A program made the position numbers and the translations under genes. Positions 12,999-18,521 of a stretch of DNA of 42,293 nt are shown piece by piece. Within the stretch, counting starts at the first letter, position 1. The number at the start of each line of letters is the position of its first letter. The notes beneath the pieces are model-generated. The model did not search any database. It was not told where the DNA came from and worked only from the letters and a program-made list of their open reading frames with translations. The DNA is from a bacterium (GTDB taxonomy: Bacteria > Actinomycetota > Acidimicrobiia > Spongiisociales > Spongiisociaceae), in contig JAPPGU010000006.1 in the NCBI GenBank assembly GCA_028821265.1, positions 1-42,293 on the forward strand, written 5' to 3'.

Positions 12999-13011
12999 GA
13001 GAATGATTCTC
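12999..13011 (+). promoter_or_regulatory. Fur/Zur-like operator before the zinc transporter operon
   Basis: A perfect 6-1-6 palindrome, GAGAATGATTCTC, followed by CATTTTCATTTTC, 39 nt before the start of the AztC-AztD gene. The shape and AT-rich core fit Fur-superfamily operators. The core GAGAATGATTnTCA recurs at 18426-18440. Zinc control by Zur is the natural inference for this operon. Confidence 0.7.
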
Positions 13012-13050
13012 ATTTTCATTTTCCCCTACGGACTGGAAAGGAAACGTGGA

Positions 13051-15486
13051 ATGTTGACGGTGCGAGATCGCAGCATAGGTTTTGGACGTCTGGCCCGGGC
13101 ATTGACTGTGGGCCTTCTCATGTTCGGTGTGGCCTTACTGGTTGCCTGCGGAGGTGACCAGGACACGCCGGCAACGGAAGCCCCACAACCGACTGCTGCA
13201 GCGGAGAGCGCAACGGCTGCCGGGGAGGGTGCCACACCCTCCGGGCCGCCGATCCAGGTGGTGGCGACCACCAACTTCGTGGCCGACTGGGTTCGAGAGG
13301 TAGGTGGAGAAAGGGTAGAGGTTTTCGGCCTGCTGCCGGCGGGTGGCGATCCGCACTCATTCCAGCCGGGAGCGCGCGACGTCGCCAGGGTGGCGGATGC
13401 GGATGTCGTGTTCACCGTCGGTCTCGAGCTCGAGGCCGCCTGGCTGGAGGATCTCTTACACAGCGCCAGTGCGGATGAGTCCCGGATAGTCGCGCTTGGT
13501 GACGTTGTCGATCCCATCGAGTTCGCGGACGACCACGACGATCATGATGATCACGCCGATGACCACATGGACGATCATGATGATCACGCCGATGACCACG
13601 CGGATGACCACGCGGATGACCACCATGGCGAGATGACCATGGGGCGCCTGCTCGTTGCGGATTCGGCAGAAGCGCACCTCTCCGTCATCGATCTATCGAC
13701 CGATGACGTTGACAGCGGAGTCTTCGAGGTCGCCGCCCCCGGCGCCACCGTGTACCCCAGTCCCACCCACCGCTACGGCATCGTCCTCGCCCGGGGGCCG
13801 GAGGATGACGACGATCGGATCCACGTCTTCGACGGCGGCGTCTTTCTCGTTCCGCACGGCGATCACTACGACCTTGTCCAGGAGCCGGTCTCTCGCCATG
13901 CGTTGGAGATCGCCGAAGAACAGCCGATCCACTACGTCAACACCTACGGCTGGACCACGATCTTCGCCGACACCAACGGCCACGTGATCCTGATCAACGA
14001 GCAAGATCTGACCGACTCGACGGGCGACTATGAACCAATCGTGCTCGAGGTTGGGCCGCAACATGGGGCAGCTCTGGTGATCTCTGAGGGACACGTCGCC
14101 GTCTCGACTCCGCATCCTGAGTACGCCGAAAACCCCGGCTTCTGGAACATCCTTCCGGAAGGTGTTGAAGTGCGTACGTTTGGCAACGAACTCGTCTTCG
14201 ACGCGGGAGCCTGCTCTCGCCTGCACGGCGAATCGCACAACGCGCACGGCGCCGTCTTCGGCTGCTGGGACGGAACGCTCTTCCTGCACGCGCACGACGG
14301 CGAGTACGAGCGTGAGCTCATCTCATATCCACCGGAGGCCGGTGAATACGGAGAGTTCGCGATCGGCCAGTACTTCGGTCACCATCACAGCGAGCACTTC
14401 TTCGGCCAATCGACCCTATTCCCCGGCGGAGAGTGTTGTGTTCAGGGCGGCGTCTGGCTGGTGGACGTGGGCCACGGCGAGATGCACGAGGTGTTCCCCG
14501 AGCCCAGTGCTGCGGCTGCGTTCTCGAGCGACGGAGAGACCTTCTACATGCTCGCGGCTGACGGCGTTCTGCGCGCGTTCGACGCTCACGACGGCGAACT
14601 GGTCGGCACCATGCAGTTGGTCGACCCGTTCGAGATGGTGTTCGGGAGTCCCTCACCCGCGATGATCGTCGTCGGCGACATGATGTACGTCGCCGATCCG
14701 AACAGCGGTCATGTCCTCGGGGTCCATCTCACGCACATGGAGATCGAAGAGGAGTGGCACGTCGGCGGCGCACCGTCGAGCCTGGCGTTCGTCGGTGTCG
14801 CCGACTCGGGCGGCGCGCCCGATCAAGGTCACGATGACCACGACGATCACGATGATCACGCCGATGACCATGCGGATGATCATGATGATCACGCCGACCA
14901 CGATGATCACGATGACCACGCGGACGAAGGGGACGGCCACGCTCACCACCATCACGGCACTCATGATCCGCACTTCTGGTTCGATCCGATCCGGGTAAAG
15001 ATCGCGGTCAACGAGATCGCCGCTCGGCTTGCGGCCATAGACCCCGAGAACGCGGACTTCTACCGTCAGAACGCCTCGGAGTATGGGAAGAAGCTCGACG
15101 AGCTTCACGCCTGGACCCAGGAGCAGGTCAGTGCGGTGGCGCCGGAACGCAGACTGCTGGTTACGTCGCATGACAGCCTCTCCTACTTCGCCGAGCTCTA
15201 CGGGTTCGAGATAGTCGGCTTGGTGATACCGTCCTTGGCGACTGATGTGGAGCCCTCTGCGGCGCACATTGCGGGACTGGTCGATGTGATACGGGAACAC
15301 AACGTGCCGGCACTGTTCGGCGAGACGACAGTCAGCGACAAGTTGGCGCAAGCCGTTGCAAGGGAGACCGGCGCGACGGTGGTCCAGCTCTACTCGGGCT
15401 CCCTCGGGGAGGAAGGCAGCGGCGCTGACACGTACCTCGGCATGGTACGGAGCAACGTGGAACGCATCGTTGAGGCACTGAAGTGA
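13051..15486 (+). CDS. Zinc ABC transporter binding lipoprotein AztC with an internal AztD-like metallochaperone domain
   Basis: About 811 aa from the ATG at 13051; an ATG at 13003 lies inside the operator. Residues 1-33 are a lipoprotein signal ending LVAC33. Residues 68-158 are the N-lobe of a cluster A-I (ZnuA/AztC) protein, with the first Zn ligand H102 in PHSFQP. A first Asp-His tract covers 160-193. Residues about 195-590 match the AztD type: VADSAEAHLSVIDL, then repeated strand blocks and GHHHSEHFF, consistent with a beta-propeller. A second Asp-His tract covers 593-636. Residues 637-811 complete the binding protein: DPHFWFDP with H641, TSHDSLSYF with H707, FGE758. The usual Asp ligand position near the end reads LYSGSLG (G783). 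AztC and AztD are separate proteins in the known aztABCD system, so this is a single-chain fusion. The aztA gene overlaps its stop. Confidence 0.85.
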   Translation: MLTVRDRSIGFGRLARALTVGLLMFGVALLVACGGDQDTPATEAPQPTAAAESATAAGEGATPSGPPIQVVATTNFVADWVREVGGERVEVFGLLPAGGDPHSFQPGARDVARVADADVVFTVGLELEAAWLEDLLHSASADESRIVALGDVVDPIEFADDHDDHDDHADDHMDDHDDHADDHADDHADDHHGEMTMGRLLVADSAEAHLSVIDLSTDDVDSGVFEVAAPGATVYPSPTHRYGIVLARGPEDDDDRIHVFDGGVFLVPHGDHYDLVQEPVSRHALEIAEEQPIHYVNTYGWTTIFADTNGHVILINEQDLTDSTGDYEPIVLEVGPQHGAALVISEGHVAVSTPHPEYAENPGFWNILPEGVEVRTFGNELVFDAGACSRLHGESHNAHGAVFGCWDGTLFLHAHDGEYERELISYPPEAGEYGEFAIGQYFGHHHSEHFFGQSTLFPGGECCVQGGVWLVDVGHGEMHEVFPEPSAAAAFSSDGETFYMLAADGVLRAFDAHDGELVGTMQLVDPFEMVFGSPSPAMIVVGDMMYVADPNSGHVLGVHLTHMEIEEEWHVGGAPSSLAFVGVADSGGAPDQGHDDHDDHDDHADDHADDHDDHADHDDHDDHADEGDGHAHHHHGTHDPHFWFDPIRVKIAVNEIAARLAAIDPENADFYRQNASEYGKKLDELHAWTQEQVSAVAPERRLLVTSHDSLSYFAELYGFEIVGLVIPSLATDVEPSAAHIAGLVDVIREHNVPALFGETTVSDKLAQAVARETGATVVQLYSGSLGEEGSGADTYLGMVRSNVERIVEALK
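13531..13565 (+). repeat. Direct repeat, copy 1, within the first Asp-His tract
   Basis: 35 nt coding for DDHDDHDDHADD-type sequence. It matches 14836-14870 at 34 of 35 positions. The longer His/Asp-coding tract runs from about 13526 to 13629. Confidence 0.9.
14836..14870 (+). repeat. Direct repeat, copy 2, within the second Asp-His tract
   Basis: The partner of 13531-13565. The two copies are 1305 nt apart, exactly 435 codons, and bracket the AztD-like domain. The surrounding Asp-His tract runs from about 14826 to 14960. Confidence 0.9.
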
Positions 15487-16238
15487 TCGCCGCGCCGATC
15501 TCTCACAGGGCGAGCATGTCCCTTCAGGACGTGTCTGTGGAGATCGGCGGGCACCTGGCCCTGAGCAACGTCACCTTCGACGTGGAAGCAGGGACCCTCA
15601 TGGGCGTCGTAGGACCTAATGGAGCCGGCAAGAGCACTCTCTTCAATGCTATTGCCGGTCTCCTCCCCGTTCGCCAAGGCACGGTATCCCTTCACCGTGC
15701 GGGACAGGAGAGCGGAGGGTTGGCATACGTGCCTCAACGAGAGAGCGTCAACTGGCGGCTCCCGGTGACCGTGATGGATGTCGTAATGATGGGCCGTTGC
15801 TGCAGGCTGGGATGGTTCCGGCGGCCCGGGAGGCGAGATCGAGAGATCGTGAAGGCGTGCCTGGGCCGTGTGGGCCTGTGGGATCATCGCTCCGCTCTGA
15901 TGACGGAGCTGTCCGGAGGGCAGAAGCAGAGGGTATTCGTCGGCAGGGCGCTGGCCCAGGAGGCAAGCGTGCTCCTGCTGGACGAGGCTTTCAGCGGGGT
16001 TGACGTCGCCGCCCAGGAAGCCCTGGTCGAGGTCCTCCAGACCCTACGGGACGAAGGGCGAATCGTGCTCCTGGCGACGCACGACCTGACCAACCTGACC
16101 GGTCGCTTCGACCAGGTGCTGTGCCTGAACCGCCATGTGTGCGCCTGCGGGCCTCCTGAGCAGGTTTTCACGCCCGAGGTCATGGAACAGATGTACGGCG
16201 CCCACGGCGTGCGTCTCACGACCGACGGAGAGCGTTAA
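15483..16238 (+). CDS. aztA: Zinc ABC transporter ATP-binding protein (AztA/ZnuC type)
   Basis: A 251-aa cytoplasmic ATPase that powers zinc import. Walker A is GPNGAGKST, the signature is LSGGQKQRV, Walker B is VLLLDEAF followed by SGVDVAAQEAL, and the switch histidine is in LLATHDL. QRESVNWRLPVTVMDVVMMGR is typical of cluster A-I metal importers. The GTG at 15483 overlaps the upstream stop codon (GTGA); an ATG at 15516 is an alternative. The symbol follows its place next to the AztC-AztD protein. Confidence 0.9.
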   Translation: MIAAPISHRASMSLQDVSVEIGGHLALSNVTFDVEAGTLMGVVGPNGAGKSTLFNAIAGLLPVRQGTVSLHRAGQESGGLAYVPQRESVNWRLPVTVMDVVMMGRCCRLGWFRRPGRRDREIVKACLGRVGLWDHRSALMTELSGGQKQRVFVGRALAQEASVLLLDEAFSGVDVAAQEALVEVLQTLRDEGRIVLLATHDLTNLTGRFDQVLCLNRHVCACGPPEQVFTPEVMEQMYGAHGVRLTTDGER

Positions 16239-16248
16239 CCAACTCGAC

Positions 16249-17067
16249 GTGATTGATCTTGTCGGCGCGCCACTAGAACACGGGTTCATGGTGAGAGCCC
16301 TTATCGGCGCGATCCTTGTGGGCGTGATGTGTCCGCTGGTCGGCTCGTACGCCGTCACCAGGAACCTCGCCTTTATCGGCGACGCTCTCGCCCACGCCGT
16401 GCTTCCGGGAATAGTGCTCGGGTACATAGTCGGCATCAACCCGGCGATAGCCGCAGTCCCGACCGGTGTCGCCGTCGCCCTGCTGGTCAGGGCAGTGAGC
16501 CGGCGTGCGGGCCTCAGTTCGGACACTTCCATAGGCATACTGTTTGCGACCATGTTTGCGCTGGGACTAGTCATGCTGGCAAGGTCAACGACGATTAAGG
16601 TCAACATTGAAGACCTGCTTCTCGGTCAGATCCTGGCAATAACCCCCACCGGCATCTATGTGTCTCTCGGGATAACGGTGATGGTCATCCTGGGGCTATT
16701 CACCTTCCACCATTGGCTGCTCTTCGCGAGCTTCGACCCCCTGGGAGCGCAGGTAAACAGCACACGAGCCAACGTTGCCGACTACGCCTTCCTGGTCATG
16801 CTCGCCCTCGTCGTGGTGATCGGGATTCAGGCGGCGGGCATCGTTCTCGTCCTGGCAATGCTGGTAACACCCGCCGCTACGGCGTACCTGTTGGTGAGGC
16901 GCTTTGTCTCGATCATGATTACCGCCGCGGCTTTGGGGGCCGCGGCCGCCGTCACAGGCCTCTATGTCTCCTACTACCTCAACCTTTCGGCCGGTCCGGC
17001 CATGACCCTGGTGGCGAGCGGGATTTTCGTACTGGCGCTCGCATTCAAACGAAGAGCGCCGGCCTGA
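16249..17067 (+). CDS. aztB: Zinc ABC transporter permease (AztB/ZnuB type)
   Basis: About 272 aa with 8 or 9 hydrophobic helices. VRALIGAILVGVMCPLVGSY and RNLAFIGDALAHAVLPG are hallmark segments of the ABC-3 permease family, as is the later GIQAAGIVLVLAMLVTPAATAYLL. The frame extends upstream to 16135 but there overlaps aztA and loses similarity, so the GTG at 16249 is chosen; ATG 16288 is also possible. It is the last gene of the operon and ends at a hairpin, facing the LivJ-like gene. Confidence 0.9.
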   Translation: MIDLVGAPLEHGFMVRALIGAILVGVMCPLVGSYAVTRNLAFIGDALAHAVLPGIVLGYIVGINPAIAAVPTGVAVALLVRAVSRRAGLSSDTSIGILFATMFALGLVMLARSTTIKVNIEDLLLGQILAITPTGIYVSLGITVMVILGLFTFHHWLLFASFDPLGAQVNSTRANVADYAFLVMLALVVVIGIQAAGIVLVLAMLVTPAATAYLLVRRFVSIMITAAALGAAAAVTGLYVSYYLNLSAGPAMTLVASGIFVLALAFKRRAPA

Positions 17068-17130: not shown

Positions 17131-18402
17131 CTACCGGTCGCCGGGTCCGGCCTCGTAGACCACGCTCTGGCGGGTGGCCTCGATGTCGGTGGAGTCGAGG
17201 TGCTCGTGGATCACCACCCCCGCGCCACCACAGTCCCCGAATTCGTCGCAACTCAGCACCCCGGTCACGCCCTGGAATCCGGAGAGGTTGTCCAGGTACT
17301 CGCGCACTCCGGCCCGATCGATTACGAGCGTTCCATCGTCCGACCTCACGTAGGAGGCGGCGCGGATCGCATCGAGTAGCAGGACGGTGGCGTCGTAGGC
17401 ATGGCCCCAGTACGTCCCGGTGGGTGACCCTCCCACCGTCTCCTCGAACCGGGCCCGGAGGCCGGGCGCGCTCTGGCCGGTGGTCTGGTTGGTGTTGTTC
17501 CCGAAGCGGCTGTCGGGGCCGGACACGTAGGTGCCCTCGCTCTGCGGCAGGCTCAGGAAGTCGTCGTTGAGCAGACCGTCCGCCGTCGCGTACACGGTCC
17601 CGGAGAAGGCGGGCATTTCCGCGGCCTGTTCCACCAGATAACCGCCGGTCGGCCAGAAGATAGGAAAGAACAGGGCATCGGGACTGCCCGCTGCTATCTC
17701 GGTGAGCACCGGCACCAGATTCTCGTCCTCGCGGTCGACCTCCCAGGTACCGGTGATGACGCCTCCATGTCCGGCGAACGCGTTGGAGAAGGCGGTGGCC
17801 AACCCTTGGGTGTAAGGACCGCCGTCGTGAACCACCGCCGCGCTCATCACGCCCTTTCCGGACAGGAAGTGGGCCACGGATTCGCCCTGGATCAGGTCGT
17901 TGTGGGCCGTCCGGTAGTAGCCGGCGAAGTGGTCTTCCCCCTCGTTGCCGACCAGATCCGAGGTCAGGGACGGCGCCGTGTTGCCCGGCGAGATAAGGAC
18001 CATGCCCGCCTTGGTGATGAGGGGCGACGCATGGGCCGCCGCCACCGAGCAGTTCGTGCCGACGACACCGACTACATCCCCCTCCGCCACCACCTGTGAC
18101 CCGGTGATCATGCCGCCTTCGGGCGAGCACATGTCGTCGAGCCCGACTCCGAGGTTTACGGCAAACCCGTGGATGCGACCGTAGTCCGCCACGGCGAACA
18201 CGATGGCACGCTCCGCCGAGTTACCGAACAACGTGAGGTCTCCGCCGTTGGTGTAGACGGAGCGGATCTGGATCGCCTCACCGCGGGCAACCTCCACAGT
18301 GCCTAGCGAACCGTCGCCCAGGCTGTCTCTCGGCGTATCGGCGCAAGCCGCGGCCAGCAAACCGAAGGCCGAGATGGAAACCAGCAGCAGCCGCCAGGGC
18401 AT
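17131..18402 (-). CDS. LivJ-like substrate-binding lipoprotein (type 1 periplasmic binding fold)
   Basis: About 423 aa from ATG 18402, which gives a clean lipoprotein signal (PWRLLLVSISAFGLLAAAC). The frame is open to 18450, but that stretch is the metal-type operator. The mature part has IQIRSVYTNGG, AVADYGRIHGFAV, VVGTNCSVAAAH, GMVLISPGNTAPSLT, a Tyr/Arg-rich binding region and GHAYDATVLLLDAIRAAS, as in ABC branched-chain amino acid (LivJ/LivK) binding proteins. No permease or ATPase of the Liv type is nearby. Ligand unknown. The Fur/Zur-like box in front suggests that it is made under metal limitation, so the ligand could be a metal complex or an amino acid used as a chelator; this is an inference. 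Confidence 0.82.
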   Translation of the reverse strand: MPWRLLLVSISAFGLLAAACADTPRDSLGDGSLGTVEVARGEAIQIRSVYTNGGDLTLFGNSAERAIVFAVADYGRIHGFAVNLGVGLDDMCSPEGGMITGSQVVAEGDVVGVVGTNCSVAAAHASPLITKAGMVLISPGNTAPSLTSDLVGNEGEDHFAGYYRTAHNDLIQGESVAHFLSGKGVMSAAVVHDGGPYTQGLATAFSNAFAGHGGVITGTWEVDREDENLVPVLTEIAAGSPDALFFPIFWPTGGYLVEQAAEMPAFSGTVYATADGLLNDDFLSLPQSEGTYVSGPDSRFGNNTNQTTGQSAPGLRARFEETVGGSPTGTYWGHAYDATVLLLDAIRAASYVRSDDGTLVIDRAGVREYLDNLSGFQGVTGVLSCDEFGDCGGAGVVIHEHLDSTDIEATRQSVVYEAGPGDR

Positions 18403-18425
18403 GCCGGGCGTAGGAGTCAGGGTAC

Positions 18426-18440
18426 TGATAATCATTCTCA
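18426..18440 (-). promoter_or_regulatory. Fur/Zur-like operator before the LivJ-like gene
   Basis: The plus strand reads TGATAATCATTCTCA, a 7-1-7 palindrome with one mismatch. The minus-strand core GAGAATGATTATCA differs at one position from the core before the zinc operon (GAGAATGATTCTCA). It lies 24 nt before the chosen start. Confidence 0.7.
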
Positions 18441-18521
18441 TAACAACCATGCTACGTAACTCAGTGGTCTATCGGCGCCTTCACCACCGGCGCCTGGGCT
18501 GGGTGCCCAAAACAGACTCGG

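Follow-up and report, generated by a model that had tools for sequence, protein, structure and literature searches.

The stretch of DNA analyzed here, referred to below as the window, comprises positions 1 to 42,293 of contig JAPPGU010000006.1 (assembly GCA_028821265.1) from a genome of the class Acidimicrobiia (phylum Actinomycetota) that is 84.6% complete. Its plus strand carries at 13051-15486 a gene whose translation is a single frame of 811 amino acids without an internal stop; an alternative in-frame ATG upstream, at 13003, would give 827 amino acids. The analysis confirmed that this frame encodes a cluster A-I metal-binding lipoprotein (ZnuA/AztC-like) that holds a full-length AztD-like propeller in its loop, and this propeller is the sole AztD match in the genome. 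An earlier note, made from the sequence alone, had claimed the order N-lobe, Asp-His tract, AztD-like part, second Asp-His tract, and rest of the binder, and profiles, fold, and ligands agree with it. The parts of the gene are as follows:

13051-15486, plus strand: fused gene, lipoprotein binder with inserted AztD-like propeller, 811 amino acids (open reading frame, profiles, orthologues)
13051-13149, plus strand: signal peptide with lipobox LLVAC (residues 29-33) and lipid-bearing Cys33 (read by eye)
13240-13527, plus strand: N-lobe of the cluster A-I binder (ZnuA profile 1-98), ligand His102 (profile, alignment)
13528-13632, plus strand: Asp/His tract 1 (composition)
13633-14805, plus strand: AztD-like beta-propeller, residues 195-585, with site 2 His269, His272, and Asp274, site 1 His294, His338, and His392, and Cys388 and Cys405 (profile, AztD sequences, fold, ligands)
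14827-14962, plus strand: Asp/His tract 2 (composition)
14963-15483, plus strand: binder C-lobe, ligands His641 (DPHFWFDP) and His707 (TSHDS) (profile, alignment)

The Pfam ZnuA family (PF01297) matches the whole protein with 265.8 bits (cut-off 29; E 5.6e-79) in two stretches that flank the insert; at the DNA level, positions 1-98 of the profile fall at 13258-13593 and positions 97-263 at 14899-15477, so the profile breaks at the loop. Residues 202-581 match the NCBIfam AztD profile (NF038015) over positions 1-354 of 356 (E 1.2e-31, 110 bits), and the sequences of AztD crystal structures match the insert at 2e-14 and 1e-11; all these match scores lie far beyond chance, and residues 195-590, read as AztD in the earlier note, do match that family in the profile search. 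Among binder families the best is NCBIfam AztC (NF040870, 256 bits), followed by Deinococcus MntC at 244. The AztC score misses the equivalog cut-off of 350 and the AztD score misses the curated cut-off of 400; we therefore call the parts AztC-like and AztD-like, so that of the AztC-AztD fusion proposed earlier the architecture stands and the unqualified names do not. No Pfam match to ZinT was found in the window protein, and NCBIfam AdcA scores 130 bits (cut-off 700), its strongest segment being profile positions 119-322 of 517, which fall in the ZnuA part.

The features that characterize AztC, three cleft histidines and a His-rich loop, are both present. His102, His641, and His707, which we take to be the cleft ligands, are invariant in all 35 fused proteins aligned, as is Glu758; the place of Asp279, the fourth ligand of PdAztC, is taken by Gly783 according to an alignment made through PsaA, in which PdAztC itself is not included. 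The window propeller has all six site 1 and site 2 ligands and both disulfide cysteines, and the C-terminal His that is the fourth ligand of site 2 is unassignable in the fused chain. Together, the donor zinc site of AztD (site 2) and the three binder histidines are invariant in 35 of the 37 fused proteins described below, the window protein included. The predicted structure of the 811-residue protein matches the beta-propeller fold of AztD and the AztC-type fold, in line with the earlier reading, and both Asp/His tracts, which flank the insert with 34 and 44 amino acids (76-77% Asp, Glu, or His), are long and disordered in the model. The translation contains no stop between the parts, and reading it by eye showed no signal peptide at the insert.

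Occurrence of the fused protein

The same fusion, which the earlier note had proposed to look for elsewhere, is present in other genomes: the set compared comprises 37 distinct fused proteins, encoded by 35 genomes from the Acidimicrobiia and the Chloroflexota, two of which (G538 and G539) carry two each. Judging by the style of their names, many of these metagenome-assembled genomes may derive from sponges. The insert was matched in 16 of 149 relatives (window genome included), with the full order of N-lobe, propeller, and C-lobe in one frame in seven; among the others, G007 shows the fused order cut by contig ends inside the propeller, and eight have stand-alone propellers or weak partial matches. 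A search of 294 genomes in the class of G535 (Dehalococcoidia) gave 33 matches, 23 of them with the fused order; the other ten are seven propellers without an in-frame C-lobe (of which three begin at a contig end or close to one) and three unclassified cases (G695, G623, and G780). Ten of 400 genomes in the phylum of G535 matched, adding two further fused forms (L182 and L183). In a 396-genome sample of the window's phylum, 22 genomes matched, and the fused order was found by profile in the window genome only; 11 have binder and propeller as separate frames within one locus, and for loci L064-L066 the profiles gave no match. A tblastn search of 72,556 plasmid records with the whole protein gave matches in 1394, in none of which a single place covered at least 80%, and the 15 matches listed are separate aztC and aztD genes or single parts.

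The lobes and the insert are alike in overall GC content (62-67%) and in third-position GC content (74-79%). Wherever nonsynonymous divergence (dN) exceeds zero, its ratio to synonymous divergence (dN/dS) is 0.05-0.37 in all three domains (28 pairs, drawn from eight of the 35 proteins); synonymous change thus exceeds amino-acid change throughout, and the fused protein has therefore been kept functional. The fusion is real, conserved, and under purifying selection.

Histories of the binder and the propeller

Separate trees were built for the two components. From the binder set, 18 loci holding parts of proteins represented by other loci were dropped, single-lobe proteins (e.g., L002, L004, L013, L023, L089, and L097) entered no binder tree, and the final binder tree has 57 of 58 rows, one long branch being left out. 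A quick propeller tree covered 63 of 65 propellers, L130 and L134 being the same proteins as L154 and L153; L013, labeled there as stand-alone, is actually a fused gene cut by a contig end. The final propeller tree has 49 of these 63, without 14 distant stand-alone propellers. L182 and L183 are in no tree, their ligands were read by eye, and the ligand counts given above cover the remaining 35 fused proteins.

The two trees conflict. The window propeller groups with those of Chloroflexota (L028, L029, L032, and L033) and with stand-alone AztD proteins (support 100/100); the propellers of L036, L040, and L041, whose binders group with that of the window (100/100), lie outside this group and adjoin it with weak support (89/78). 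With the propeller data, enforcing the binder's clade carries a penalty of 233 log units (p-AU, the p value of the approximately unbiased test, 1e-67), and these data reject joint descent of the two parts; with the binder data, a constraint uniting the Acidimicrobiia with L028 is worse by 342 log units (p-AU 1e-4). The constrained groups were chosen after the first quick trees, each being taken from the tree of the other domain or from the fusion trait. A single clade for all 35 fused binders, tried in the binder data, was likewise rejected (p-AU 5e-10, or 0.005 with the unfused L085 and L095 added). On the binder tree the fused label requires five changes, of which at least four fall on well-supported branches.

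Pairwise comparisons, restricted at the DNA level to matches of at least 80 bases, point the same way. L183 is 83% identical to the window protein in the C-lobe and 33% in the propeller; for L028 the corresponding values are 36% and 78%. The DNA match of the window with L029 is restricted to 13642-14799 (82%), and that with L028 to 13637-14852 (79%) and a further 125 bases around tract 2, at 14880-14994. Conversely, L183 matches at 13245-13566, weakly over 82 bases at 13576-13657, and at 14953-16369, and L182 at 13237-13562 and 14953-16416, the propeller being unmatched past its first bases in both; the DNA of L036 and L040 matches throughout. The borders of similarity thus lie in or beside the tracts. 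Close relatives, too, can diverge at synonymous sites to another degree in the insert than in its flanks: synonymous divergence of N-lobe, propeller, and C-lobe is 0.05, 0.18, and 0.06 for the pair L006-L009 and 0.07, 0.23, and 0.05 for L011-L012; other pairs show the opposite trend (L006-L008: 0.18, 0.12, and 0.19).

Occupied and empty versions of the same locus were also found. In G535, which holds the fused protein L038 elsewhere, the unfused binder L155 is collinear over about 12 kb with the fused L137, L140, L142, and L045 at 76-81% identity, and L143, L138, and L033 agree with this collinearity; L139, L136, and L038 match L155 in or beside the gene only and belong to a different locus. 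The alignments break at the loop, which spans 185-239 bases in L155 compared with 1187-1223 in its fused counterparts; the loops differ by about 1.0 kb net, which equals the propeller (about 1.17 kb) minus the longer tract of the unfused loop (about 150 amino acids), and the other alignment gaps of L155 fall outside the gene. One contig of G533 carries both the fused binder L029 and the unfused L095 (loop of about 170 amino acids), whose C-lobe proteins are identical by eye; the DNA is 93% identical on the C side over 781 bases and 79% on the N side over 465. Propellers that end without a C-lobe nest among fused ones, two of them complete (L030 and L035) and two cut on the N side by contig ends (L031 and L034).

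These data support the view that propellers move as exchangeable cassettes: the loops of several different binders would have gained, lost, or replaced one, with the boundaries lying in the tracts, which are in-frame repetitive DNA; such exchange between different binders goes beyond what the earlier note had envisaged. We lean toward a stronger form of this view, in which the propeller would be a mobile protein cassette that uses the tracts as recombination landing sites, was inserted, removed, or replaced in at least three binder lineages of two phyla, and was also shed as stand-alone lipoproteins and double-propeller proteins. If so, low-complexity metal-binding loops would be sites of domain exchange, and each insertion would turn a two-protein metal hand-over into an intramolecular one.

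Several related forms were seen beside these. A divergent binder lineage (L124-L126; branch of 1.8 in the binder tree) has the same propeller in its loop and could be another independent cassette host. Locus L039 (4230-7212) holds a 994-amino-acid frame of two AztD-like propellers joined by an Asp/His/Glu tract, without binder lobes, and L014 (1314-2649, G093) a stand-alone AztD-like frame, 34% identical to that of the window, with a TAA inside, being either a pseudogene or an assembly error. The loops of the unfused binders L085 and L095, of about 150-170 residues, consist largely of Asp/Glu/His repeats (with Gln in L085) and are far longer than known ZnuA loops. Judged by its two halves (L004, G000:C60, and L002, G000:C63), which break at contig ends in an Asp/Glu/His loop, the window genome has a second ZnuA-like binder, with a Fur-like box visible upstream of its N-part; in G006, of the same genus, a similar binder (L176) forms a single frame whose loop contains a run of N. 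In G008, also of this genus, a close orthologue of the window binder is found in pieces (L180, L181, and L166), with tracts reaching to or near contig ends and the N-lobe present twice; no propeller match was found in the genome search of G008, and its binder may be an empty version within the genus.

Neighboring genes and putative operators

The surroundings of the fused gene include the following features:

12999-13017, plus strand: Fur/Zur-like operator, 19 bp, 15/19 to the Fur box (consensus scan)
15483-16238, plus strand: ATP-binding cassette (ABC) ATPase (AztA/ZnuC-like, ABC_tran), its start overlapping the stop of the fused gene
16204-17067, plus strand: ABC-3 family permease (AztB/ZnuB-like); the mechanical open reading frame starts at 16135

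The ATPase and permease genes by which an AztABCD system is recognized thus lie in an operon with the fused gene; many fused loci of Chloroflexota lack such an arrangement. All eight clade A loci with flanking sequence (L024-L027, L036, L037, L040, and L041) have the ATPase directly downstream, and the permease comes next in seven of them, lying about 3 kb further on in L025.

The operator was scored against what we take to be the Fur box consensus, by which Fur and Zur cannot be told apart. On the plus strand of the window two sites reach at least 15/19, that at 12999-13017 among them. Among 16 loci examined, the four close relatives L024, L025, L026, and L037 have a box of 15-18/19 near the start of the fused gene; in the other 12, all from Chloroflexota, the best box is 9-13/19. 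A second Fur/Zur-like box, which scores best in the window (16/19), lies at 18421-18439, where it overlaps the program-called start of a Peripla_BP_6 gene adjoining the azt genes (17131-18450, minus strand). Because of this box, the amino-acid-type binder encoded there may share a zinc or iron regulon with the azt genes.

Possible zinc transfer and comparison with known systems

The data as a whole are probably best explained as follows. The anchored zinc-binding lipoprotein would serve the ABC importer encoded directly downstream, and its AztD-type chaperone is lodged in the Asp/His D-loop, the flexible element on which transfer from a separate AztD normally depends. The propeller would capture zinc at site 2 and pass it to the three-His cleft of the same molecule, with the tracts acting as flexible tethers, perhaps also as low-affinity zinc collectors, and with the propeller as an exchangeable cassette; the slow protein-protein association of the two-protein system would become intramolecular. 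The hand-over within one molecule is the step that we infer for the fused proteins. In Paracoccus, AztC receives zinc from site 2 of AztD only; the transfer does not proceed without the D-loop of AztC, and its rate is limited by complex formation, at 575-1330 per M per s (PMC6689063, PMC7463823). Site 2 of AztD lies on an extension of the N- and C-terminal strands and the blade 2 hairpin (PMC6689063); since the propeller is inserted by both ends and site 2 is where the termini meet, the donor end would be tied to the binder. A Gaussian-chain estimate from the tract lengths, valid to an order of magnitude only, gives an effective concentration of 6-39 mM and about 3-50 transfers per s, and the same estimate gives about 0.001 transfers per s for separate partners at 1 uM.

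Several observations weigh against this explanation. Neither NCBIfam cut-off is reached, and the best-matching binder folds include manganese binders at tied Z, so that zinc specificity rests on the His ligands and the tracts. The predicted model has a template modeling score (pTM) of 0.51, and the placement of the propeller relative to the cleft is unreadable from it; the geometric argument therefore relies on the published AztD structure. As read by eye, L182 lacks one site 1 His and L183 all three together with site 2 His272, and the zinc sites are thus not required in every member. The ATPase is downstream in two of five clade A2 loci (L149 and L151), the flanked B loci lack it there altogether, and seven B3 loci (L033, L045, L137, L138, L140, L142, and L143) have only a convergent permease-like frame (36-40% identity); with such varied neighbors, the operon argument is valid for the window's lineage and not for every fused protein. 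Gain and loss of the propeller are indistinguishable case by case, because two direct-orientation tracts permit in-frame deletion as easily as insertion. In Paracoccus, transfer was found not to involve the His-rich motif at the N-terminus of AztD (PMC7463823), which leaves an active relay by the tracts without support there; and if docking is of the loop-in-pore kind proposed for this genus, a domain inserted in the D-loop could disrupt it.

The principal rival is that the protein is a zinc buffer or store, in which the propeller and tracts would enrich zinc at the surface and the cleft would load from nearby free zinc without direct hand-over. Site 1 and the tracts are mostly kept, though Paracoccus AztD donates from site 2 only (PMC6689063), this AztD is thought to accumulate periplasmic zinc (PMC7731109), and the unfused long-tract binders L085 and L095 suggest that selection for zinc enrichment alone is possible; yet site 2 is kept in all 35 fused proteins checked, and the insert sits in the loop on which direct transfer depends, and we regard the buffer as unlikely, if worth keeping in mind. 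Fainter still is the prospect that the propeller chiefly binds something else, such as a metal complex or a ligand of the host or the matrix, so that its zinc sites would be structural and swaps would alter the target and not zinc movement. Propellers are common interaction folds (PMC6689063), the insert has been replaced by versions just 33% alike, and zinc sites are degraded in some members (L183), but the AztD zinc ligands are near-invariant in the main group, and the window's lineage has importer genes downstream and a Zur/Fur-like box.

The two remaining alternatives deny that donor and acceptor are one chain. Cleavage after export would leave a non-covalent AztC-AztD pair, and long tracts on both sides, disordered according to the model, would be open to proteases; it would, however, also part the N-lobe from the C-lobe, whose fold must then survive, and by eye (no predictor was run) there is no hint of a cleavage site, which makes this very improbable. 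A chimeric assembly, in which a separate aztC and a separate aztD were merged at Asp/His repeats that they share, could be suspected from the repetitive tracts and from the second binder of the genome, which breaks at contig ends in such a tract. Against it, the longest exact match between tracts 1 and 2 is 20 bases, stops and an internal signal peptide are lacking as noted above, and the 37 fused proteins in 35 genomes lie on contigs of up to 924 kb from two kinds of assembler, judging by contig names, although some of the metagenome-assembled genomes share a sample series; given the short tract match and the number of fused proteins, we rule the chimera out as next to impossible.

The covalent nesting of an AztD-like protein in an AztC-like one is not described in the literature searched, mostly that available without subscription, which bears out the novelty claimed earlier within that scope; the parts themselves are known. 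Direct metal transfer is hard to study when the partners meet slowly and transiently, and a natural single chain of donor and acceptor would make the transfer step directly measurable and so provide a test of the proposed AztD-AztC mechanism. In addition, the conflicting domain histories point to a folded domain swapped in frame between host proteins, with borders in low-complexity tracts, a route to domain insertion that is traceable here at the DNA level.

The window protein shares with AztABCD of Paracoccus denitrificans the two folds, the site 1 and site 2 ligands, the cleft histidines, and the adjacent ATPase and permease genes; in that system AztD stands alone and depends on the AztC loop for transfer (PMC6689063, PMC7463823), whereas here it lies covalently inside that loop, between two tracts. 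The separate aztC and aztD neighbors in 11 genomes of the window's phylum likewise place the pair side by side, but as two genes. ZnuA proteins with a long His-rich loop, to which the fragmented second binder of the window genome belongs, have a low-complexity zinc-binding loop in the same place, though without a folded domain. Streptococcal AdcA, likewise a lipoprotein in which a zinc binder is combined with a chaperone-like zinc domain (PMC6689063), consists of discrete globular ZnuA-like and ZinT-like domains joined by an 11-amino-acid linker (PMC7858048), in contrast to a second domain placed inside the loop of the first, and ZinT is structurally dissimilar to AztD (PMC7731109). AdcA is thus the nearest precedent, with another chaperone in another place.
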